A stretch of DNA of 64,000 nucleotides from Hyphomonadaceae bacterium (GTDB lineage Bacteria; Pseudomonadota; Alphaproteobacteria; Caulobacterales; Aquidulcibacteraceae), in NCBI GenBank assembly GCA_022843225.1, contig JALHOC010000008.1, positions 1 through 64,000 on the forward strand, in the 5' to 3' direction. This document shows, piece by piece, positions 22,800 through 25,085 of this stretch. The notes under the pieces were generated by a model. That model saw only the letters and a program-made list of their open reading frames with translations, had not been told where the DNA came from and did not search any database. Numbering within the stretch: position 1 is the stretch's first letter; every line of letters starts with the position of its first letter. Made by a program: the position numbers and the translations under genes.

Positions 22800-23720
22800 T
22801 TAGCCCGGTGCGCCGACGCGCTCTACTGTGACGCCGCGCGCGCGCAATTGCGCCACTAGACCATCGGGGCCAACCAGGTGGGCCGCGCCAACGCCGACGA
22901 AATCGACGCCCGAACCGCCGAGCTCTTGAACCAATGTCGCAACCCACGCTTGATTACGCTGCGTGATCAACACCGCATACACTTCAGGATATTCATCGCG
23001 CATCTGCTCGTTGAGCAGCGTCTCTAGCGCCGACACATCGCCGCGCTCCCAGGCCGCGCTCATTTGATCGAGCATTTCCGCGCCGCGATCGGCTTCATCG
23101 ATGGCTTCGACCAACATCTGCCGCTGCAGCTCAGGCGAGAGATTGGCGAAGAACCCGATCTGCTGTTGCGGCGTTTCAAAGGCGCGCATGCGCTTGCCAT
23201 TTGCATCGCCAAACGCATCGATGGCGCGATCAACGCCAGCTTGGGGATTGTAGCCAGCTTGCATCATCGGCAGCACGGTCAGCGTCAACGCCGCAAACCA
23301 TGGCTGCAGGGGTTCGAGTTGTTGCGCTTGCAGTCCAAAACGCTGCGCGGTCGCGGCCAGGCGCTGGTTCTCGTCGGGCGTCAGCCAGCTCGATAGCGGC
23401 CGCCCCGCCGGCGCGATGCCGCTTTGCATCGCCAATTGTTGCGTCTGCGCTTCCGCTTCGGGCGAGATTTCGAGCTCAGTCCAGATCTCTTCTGATCGCG
23501 CTAAGGCCGCTTCGACATCGGGGCTGCCCCAAGGCTCGCCGTCGCGGCGCAAATGGATCGTGCCGTAGAGATAGATCGCGGAGTCCGCATCGCGCGCGAC
23601 ATAAAGCGCGGGACCGCTTGTCGCTTGCCGCGCGGGTTCAGTTTGAGCCGGCGCGCCGCTGGAGGCGCATCCCCACACCAAGGCGATCGAAGCGATCGCC
23701 GCCAATACCCGTTTTTTCAT
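22800..23720 (-). CDS. TraB/GumN family lipoprotein
   Basis: The start at 23720 gives 306 residues, MKKRVLAAIASIALVWGCASS, with lipobox VWGC; the track's longer start is unlikely. The family motif LYGTIHLRRDG (about residues 50-60) and the C-terminal FVGVGAAHLVGPDGLVAQLRARG are clear TraB/GumN features. The family has an EreA/ChaN-like fold with proposed metalloprotease activity; the biological role in bacteria is uncertain. It ends with a strong terminator. Confidence 0.88.
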   Translation of the reverse strand: MKKRVLAAIASIALVWGCASSGAPAQTEPARQATSGPALYVARDADSAIYLYGTIHLRRDGEPWGSPDVEAALARSEEIWTELEISPEAEAQTQQLAMQSGIAPAGRPLSSWLTPDENQRLAATAQRFGLQAQQLEPLQPWFAALTLTVLPMMQAGYNPQAGVDRAIDAFGDANGKRMRAFETPQQQIGFFANLSPELQRQMLVEAIDEADRGAEMLDQMSAAWERGDVSALETLLNEQMRDEYPEVYAVLITQRNQAWVATLVQELGGSGVDFVGVGAAHLVGPDGLVAQLRARGVTVERVGAPG

Positions 23721-23733
23721 GGCCTTCTCTCCT

Positions 23734-23949
23734 TTATTCCGCCGCCTGAGCAGCAACGGTTTCGTCAAAGAAAATCTCTTCGATATGCAGCTTGAACAGC
23801 CGCGCGATTTTGAATGCCAACGGCAAAGAGGGATCGTATCGGCCGGTCTCAATGGCGTTGATGGTCTGGCGTGACGCGCCGAGCTTTTCGGCGAGATCGG
23901 CCTGGCTCCATTCGCGCTCGGCGCGGAGCACTCTGAGGCGATTTTTCAT
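23734..23949 (-). CDS. XRE-family small HTH regulator
   Basis: The start at 23949 gives a 71-residue Cro/C1-type HTH (MKNRLRVLRAEREWSQADLAEKLGASRQTINAIETGRYDPSL) with a short helical tail. It is fused translationally to the gene before it: the ATG overlaps the TGA stop of the membrane protein (ATGA). Such small XRE proteins normally repress their own operon; the palindrome and repeats at 24979-25085 are the likely operators (inference). It is followed 13 bases later by the TraB/GumN gene start. Confidence 0.9.
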   Translation of the reverse strand: MKNRLRVLRAEREWSQADLAEKLGASRQTINAIETGRYDPSLPLAFKIARLFKLHIEEIFFDETVAAQAAE

Positions 23950-24848
23950 GCGGGCTTGCCCACGGTGGAGAAGTGTCCCACCGCCATGCTGGTCACGTAT
24001 GACGTCGCGATCATTTGGACGAGCACGAGCGCCAGGAAGACGCCAACCGCATCCAGACCAGGAGCGTAACCCAGCGCTTGCAGGCCGGCCCAAACGAAAG
24101 CCGCGAGCGTCAAAAACGCGCCCGAATACGCGTACCCCTCGACCACGTGGCGGCGCTGCATTTCGTCAAAGCCGCTCCACAAGCGATAATTGGCGAAGGC
24201 GCTGGCGAAGGCGGTGATGAAAGCGACGACAACCGGGGCAAGTCGGGCCGCTTCGTCGGCTTGACGACCAACCGCAAGCGCGGCGCACGCCACGCCAATC
24301 GTGATCGTCGCGAAGGACGCCCACGCATAGACACGCCGCTCCAGCCTGCGCACCTCAAGGCATTCGGCATCCGCTTCATCTATCTGCAGTGCAGCGACCG
24401 CGGGCCGGCCGCCGAATGCGATGGCGCCGATGAGACCGCCCATGGTGATGCAATACGCGGCCAGGATCCACAGGAAGCTGTCCAGCAAGGTCGCTTCAGC
24501 CAGCGGCCCGGTCAGGCGCGCCGCCAACTCGGGTACACCGGCGAAAAGATCGAGCGCGAATGCCATGCCCGCCCCGGCGAATGCGCCGAACACACCGTAA
24601 ATCACCCATCGCATGCCTTGAGTGCGGCCCTTACCGAGCCATTGGCCAAGGACGATCGCGCCCACGATCAGCACAACCGGCGTCGCGTGTAGCAGGGCAA
24701 TCGCGATACCCTGCGGCACGCCTGCGCCCGTGAGGCCGGCGAGCGCGTCCGCCTCAGGCCTTCCCGTCGCCGATAACAGCGCGGCAAGCGCCGCCAGTGT
24801 AACGAGGCCGAAGCCTCGCACCCGGTTCGAGTTCGCAGCTTGGGTCAT
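23946..24848 (-). CDS. Multispan membrane protein coupled to the XRE regulator
   Basis: The start is placed at 24848 (300 residues), the second Met of the track ORF. About eight hydrophobic segments are seen (e.g. GIAIALLHATPVVLIVGAIV, MRWVIYGVFGAFAGAGMAFAL, AVGVFLALVLVQMIATSYVT). A cytosolic loop in the middle is charged (ALQIDEADAECLEVRRLERR). I do not recognise the family. The stop overlaps the XRE start. Pairs of a membrane protein with a small XRE repressor are widespread; the membrane protein is often the regulated output. Confidence 0.75.
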   Translation of the reverse strand: MTQAANSNRVRGFGLVTLAALAALLSATGRPEADALAGLTGAGVPQGIAIALLHATPVVLIVGAIVLGQWLGKGRTQGMRWVIYGVFGAFAGAGMAFALDLFAGVPELAARLTGPLAEATLLDSFLWILAAYCITMGGLIGAIAFGGRPAVAALQIDEADAECLEVRRLERRVYAWASFATITIGVACAALAVGRQADEAARLAPVVVAFITAFASAFANYRLWSGFDEMQRRHVVEGYAYSGAFLTLAAFVWAGLQALGYAPGLDAVGVFLALVLVQMIATSYVTSMAVGHFSTVGKPA

Positions 24849-24856
24849 GACATCCC

Positions 24857-24967
24857 TCACGCGAACATCTGCGCGGACTGGCCGAGCACGGAGAGGCCGA
24901 TCGGCGCGACCAAAGCAATTGCGAGAGCGAGGCTGGCGAGCCGGCCCAGGAACGAAAACACTTTCAT
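24857..24967 (-). CDS. 36-residue membrane peptide, first gene of the XRE operon
   Basis: The ORF is absent from the track because of its size. From ATG at 24967 it reads MKVFSFLGRLASLALAIALV... and stops at 24857, with one hydrophobic helix (about residues 10-28). AAAGGGG lies 6-12 bases upstream, better than the RBS of the next gene. The stop is 9 bases before the ATG of the membrane protein, so this is either a leader peptide or a small partner subunit. Support is sequence-only but coherent. Confidence 0.6.
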   Translation of the reverse strand: MKVFSFLGRLASLALAIALVAPIGLSVLGQSAQMFA

Positions 24968-24978
24968 GGCAAACCCCT

Positions 24979-25005
24979 TTGTCTAAGTGACAAGGGTATT
25001 TGTCA
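24979..25005. promoter_or_regulatory. Palindromic operator-like site TTGTC-N5-GACAA
   Basis: TTGTC (24979-24983) and GACAA (24989-24993) form a perfect palindrome with a 5-base spacer, 12 bases before the start of the 36-aa peptide. A third half-site, TTGTCA, follows at 25000-25005. The layout fits a dimeric XRE/Cro repressor; the coupled XRE gene makes autoregulation the simplest reading. Confidence 0.6.
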
Positions 25006-25032
25006 TGGATGCACCCTGCGTGTCAAGTATCT

Positions 25033-25085
25033 TTTCCAAAAAGATCCTGAAACTTTCCAAAAAGACTGGGTGGTTTTCCAAAATG
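25033..25085. promoter_or_regulatory. Three TTTCCAAAA repeats spaced exactly 21 bp
   Basis: TTTCCAAAAAGA occurs at 25033 and 25054 and TTTCCAAAATG at 25075, with a period of 21 bases, i.e. two helical turns, so all three lie on the same DNA face. They lie in the gap between the XRE operon and the dcd stop, upstream of the palindrome. The spacing and sequence differ from the TTGTC site, so a second regulator may be involved. Confidence 0.65.

Follow-up and report, generated by a model that had tools for sequence, protein, structure and literature searches.

The locus described here raises the question of what controls a compact operon that opens with an unlisted hydrophobic peptide, whether the two kinds of repeat in front of it serve one regulator or two, and what the peptide itself might be. 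Within the 64-kb stretch of DNA that was analyzed (the window), the genes encoding the peptide (36 aa, MKVFSFLGRLASLALAIALVAPIGLSVLGQSAQMFA; 24857..24967), a multispan membrane protein (300 aa, without a Pfam family; 23946..24848) and an XRE regulator (71 aa; 23734..23949) form a coupled set on the minus strand, and the regulatory sites run in the same strand direction. The TGA stop of the peptide gene overlaps the ribosome-binding sequence of the membrane-protein gene (TGAGGGATGTCATG), and the membrane-protein stop and the XRE start codon share an ATGA. A gene for a TraB/PrgY/GumN-family protein (22800..23720, minus strand; gene calls and domain match) starts 13 bp after the XRE gene ends and is probably transcribed with it as a fourth gene of the operon. 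The palindrome, the three repeats and the three-gene operon with its unlisted peptide, all reported in the initial annotation, were recovered on the sequence at the same coordinates.

The most regular feature of the upstream region is the 9-mer TTTCCAAAA, which occurs at 25033, 25054 and 25075 with a period of exactly 21 bp. It is the sole in-phase 9-mer triple in the window, and no such triple arose in 20 Markov shuffles of the window or in 5000 local shuffles. Read on the transcribed (minus) strand and counted from the −35 box, the distal repeat (25075..25083) belongs to an operator-like unit at −63, TTTTGGAAA, the middle repeat (25054..25062) to a unit at −42, GTC-TTTTT-GGAAAG, and the proximal repeat (25033..25041) to a unit at −21, ATC-TTTTT-GGAAAAG; all three assignments draw on the shuffle tests and on the matrix tests given below. 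The −35 box TTGACA (25021..25026, minus strand) lies within the same 21-bp register and is kept in 10/10 promoters of the genus. A probable but weak −10 box, ACAAAT (24998..25003, minus strand), 17 bp from the −35 box, was missed by a strict promoter scan and overlaps a GACAA half-site at 25000-25004; relatives have TATGAT or TAAAAG at the −10 position. The core operator TTGTC-N5-GACAA (TTGTC-TAAGT-GACAA; 24979..24993, no strand) sits at the predicted transcription start and overlaps the 5′ leader. Only two exact copies of this operator occur in the entire 2.86-Mb alphaproteobacterial draft genome, compared to 0 for the reversed control. The second copy (G000:C34:7934-7948; L051) lies in the promoter of another XRE-type gene, in the gap that separates this gene from a divergently oriented neighbor. 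Sites with two mismatches were no more common genome-wide than in the control (59 versus 56), giving no signal of a degenerate-operator regulon, and a degenerate site alone therefore proves little.

The intergenic sequence was also compared among relatives. Loci L002-L008 and L014, all from the same genus, keep the TTGACA −35 box, GACAA at −10, TTGTC-N5-GACAA and the peptide. The initial annotation had named loss of the repeats from relatives that keep the operon as the outcome that would count against its reading; since repeats, palindrome and peptide are all conserved in the operon-bearing relatives of the genus, that reading holds on this point. In these relatives, the 21-bp blocks nearest the promoter read GTC-TTTTN-GGAAAAG, and the outer blocks, in the same register, read GTC-ATTTA-GACAAA, with distal copies of the form GTC-ATTTA-GACAAAGG; in L004, the GACAAA register extends to 84 bp upstream. 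Other genera show the same layout with fewer units, and in one of them (L013) the upstream unit is a perfect operator, TTGTC-ATTTT-GACAA. The 21-bp phase reaches the −35 box, continues into the core promoter and recurs in relatives, a pattern that fits binding on a single face of the DNA.

The relation between palindrome and repeats was quantified using a weight matrix for which TTGTC-N5-GACAA sites were the sole training set and which was scored at all upstream offsets of nine genus promoters. Offsets −21, −42 and −63 had the best three mean scores of 97, and 0/20000 rotations were equally good; in the window itself, the repeats at these offsets rank 3, 1 and 4 of 97. Because a matrix blind to the repeats ranks them so highly, and because GACAAA occurs in register in relatives, the upstream repeats resemble degenerate versions of a single operator. 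Across the wider set of related XRE operons, the exact operator precedes 18/42 (L066 counted once), compared to 0 for seven control patterns, and 21 bp is the commonest spacing of near-repeat pairs (17 occurrences, compared to about 0.3 per spacing in shuffles), although both counts somewhat overstate the strength of the association because related loci, including those of the same genus, are not independent. The inverted repeat is present in the promoter of its own locus and is linked to this family of XRE regulators. In a further family of the order, too, an XRE operon is immediately preceded by the dCTP deaminase gene (L059 and L060), which suggests that this neighborhood is an old shared locus.

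The initial annotation had taken the two repeat types as a sign of two regulators, with the XRE protein acting on the palindrome and a different protein on the TTTCCAAAA repeats. The two sequences do look different in this one genome, but relatives bridge them continuously in the same register, their distal copies being of the GTC-ATTTA type, and the matrix scores the repeats as operator variants. We have therefore rejected two separate regulators on the register and matrix tests and regard such an arrangement as very improbable. Slightly less probable again is an RNA-level role for the palindrome, in which a hairpin would mask the ribosome-binding site in front of the peptide. Its stem does overlap the GGGG ribosome-binding stretch, and a terminator-like hairpin was called on the opposite strand; the operator arms, however, stay invariant from genus to genus instead of changing in a compensatory way, are degenerate on one side only, and are also found upstream of the −35 box, outside the transcript.

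A more serious competitor, possible if still doubtful, is that the main role of the proximal repeats is to be contacted by the alpha subunits of RNA polymerase, as UP elements or as A/T tracts in helical phase, and that only the palindrome is an operator. The textbook UP pattern is TTTTnnAAAA just upstream of the −35 box, and the proximal repeat, as the unit TTTTTGGAAAA-N5-TTGACA, fits it. The near-promoter repeats are consistently GGAAAA rather than GACAA, a form kept in most genus promoters, and may be low-affinity sites or have some other function. Against a purely UP-type role, the left half GTC is conserved although an UP element needs none, the distal units carry GACAAA, and other genera have operator-like sequence rather than A/T tracts at the same place. 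The UP-element and operator roles may coexist.

The putative ligand of these sites is encoded within the operon. The XRE protein consists of an HTH_3 domain with no further domain and falls into the CylR2-like class (PbsX/COG1476) by domain and structure-sequence matches. Its closest match among solved sequences is the PbsX-family regulator 9k3w (E = 1.6e-25 over 62 residues), and it also matches CylR2 of Enterococcus faecalis (structure 1utx; E = 2.6e-11). Our literature search found no paper on 9k3w and none on XRE operators spaced two helical turns apart. CylR2 is a small XRE dimer that represses a promoter within its own locus and is encoded beside a predicted membrane protein, CylR1, which is thought to relay a signal (PMC3709268). 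The window operon likewise pairs a small protein of the XRE-dimer family with a predicted membrane protein. In contrast, CylR1 has three predicted membrane helices where the 300-aa partner in the window has more, and the window operon lacks cytolysin-type genes, having instead operators arranged in tandem and a peptide gene at the head of the operon. CylR1/CylR2 may work analogously in part, and we do not claim membership in the CylR system.

We consider it likely that the operon is autoregulated: along with a membrane protein and a peptide from a lineage-restricted multicopy family, it would encode a CylR2-like repressor of the XRE type whose dimers occupy the core operator and its degenerate copies spaced at 21 bp. 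The sequence itself shows the sites, their register, how they are conserved and their link to this regulator family; binding, repression and cooperativity belong to the proposed model. In this model, an XRE dimer would most likely bind the perfect TTGTC-N5-GACAA at the transcription start, and further dimers would bind the weaker copies through and upstream of the promoter, helped by neighbors on the same face; since 21 bp corresponds to two helical turns, all bound dimers would lie on the same side of the DNA. Occupancy would shut the promoter, so that the operon represses itself, and we infer that the membrane protein relieves this repression upon a signal. The proximal unit beside the −35 box may double as an UP element. 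If correct, the operator array offers a well-defined example, open to testing, of a minimal repressor of 71 residues on a helically phased row of sites, and predicts the operator sequence for a whole family of XRE regulators.

The membrane protein itself matched no Pfam or NCBIfam family above cut-off. The DEMQRR region near its C terminus can be aligned with the membrane proteins (DEFQRR) that other XRE operons encode (hhalign probability 92). A structure model of moderate confidence (pLDDT 68) gave no Foldseek match at E = 0.001. Within the genus, the protein was matched in 11/30 genomes, in one of the 11 weakly. At one locus (L014, genome G025), it is cut down to the C-terminal part, and the peptide, promoter and XRE gene are retained.

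The peptide occurs at the same place in nine loci of the genus, with a pN/pS of only 0.56 within the operon loci. Its short length, its position as the first, coupled gene of the operon and its absence from some relatives, including L011, where the operon is retained without it, would suit a regulatory leader or a nonfunctional open reading frame. We nevertheless think that explanation unlikely, since a model of the operon peptide found many more copies outside the operon, defining a family of 92 unique loci, mostly outside the operon studied here, with coding-type substitution and invariant residues. Members are hydrophobic and about 30 residues long (consensus MTKFYALIAACAVFAPVAFATLNQAAQIVA). 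Conservation figures for the family come from members gathered by a protein model and are therefore somewhat favored by that selection: P16 and Q24 are invariant in 77/77 thirty-residue members, the two outer positions of the A-x-A-type site at 18-20 are kept in 76/77 and 71/77 members (A or S), substitutions mostly affect third codon positions, and close pairs have a pN/pS of 0.23. The window peptide was found at E = 2.2e-7 by a family model built without it that included two operon peptides of relatives, and a seed model free of any operon peptide also finds it, at E = 3.7e-8 among the loci examined. Its P22, Q30 and A36 align with Pro-16, Gln-24 and the terminal Ala of the family, and it has G and S at the A-x-A positions. 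The operon peptide is very probably translated. It may stay in the membrane as a microprotein or be the precursor of a short exported peptide. Paralogous XRE operons (L038, L041, L042, L044, L053, L054 and L055) also open with a short hydrophobic open reading frame directly after the same operator, a pattern seen in a handful of loci, of which L042, with MTKLNKWPWLGILAVAALVALAMSLGFFG, is one example.

The family has a narrow distribution. At E = 1e-4, 29/30 genomes of the genus have 1 to 24 copies, some members occur in three further genera of that taxonomic family, and no other genome among 299 sampled from the order gave a match; at E = 1e-5, it was found in 0/384 other genomes of a sample of the class. 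It matched no entry in Pfam, NCBIfam or Rfam, and a literature search on QAAQIVA returned no paper. By these searches, the family is previously unannotated, lineage restricted and multicopy. The genome that contains the window has eleven more members, the majority in tandem pairs (G000:C3:115839-116057, C11:43906-44118, C58:2330-2547, C100:1806-2032 and C20:17515-20530). Across the family there are 33 tandem pairs, with spacings of 15-48 nt. As predicted from their upstream sequences, the window member has come under XRE operators in part of the genus, and most others form tandem pairs under CRP-type promoters. The peptide is arguably the larger point of this locus, as it led to an unannotated family of about 30 residues that is conserved residue by residue, paired, preceded by a constant CRP-type promoter and confined to a few genera. 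Routine annotation misses such families, whose members might act as membrane regulators, as toxins or as signals.

Small bacterial membrane proteins and the tandem type I toxin genes (such as Ldr and Ibs) are likewise very short hydrophobic peptides in repeated copies that annotation often misses. The present family shares these traits with Ldr and Ibs but has no sequence-family match, and its genes are paired in the sense orientation under CRP-type promoters. A further difference is that Pro-x-Ala-x-Ala near its end resembles a signal-peptidase site, which favors a precursor of an exported decapeptide in the wider family and does so more weakly in the operon members. We speculate that the peptides could be exported signals, cut after A-x-A to release a decapeptide like TLNQAAQIVA, which the membrane protein would sense, releasing the XRE repressor, with signal genes also present in many copies under CRP-type control. 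This scenario is a long shot; if true, it would constitute a peptide-signaling circuit in an alphaproteobacterial genus.

The promoters of the peptide pairs are themselves uniform. GTGA-N6-TCAC, with at most one mismatch, precedes 30/30 nonredundant first genes of pairs (shuffles: mean 0.93, maximum 5), and in 29/30 the distance from it to a conserved TCATCG-like stretch close to the presumed start is 38-39 nt, a TA-x-x-TT box lying in between. Class II CRP-type promoters have this geometry; two CRP/FNR-sized regulators are encoded in the genome. Pairs such as L120, L147 and L108 have a variable hairpin directly ahead of the ribosome-binding site. A stem is predicted in every pair leader folded, and as only some fold clearly better than shuffles, an RNA element is not claimed. 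Single peptide genes (L110, L127, L151, L152 and L153) tend to another layout, with GCATCC and GGCATCT about 17-18 bp apart, perhaps reflecting another sigma factor or regulator.
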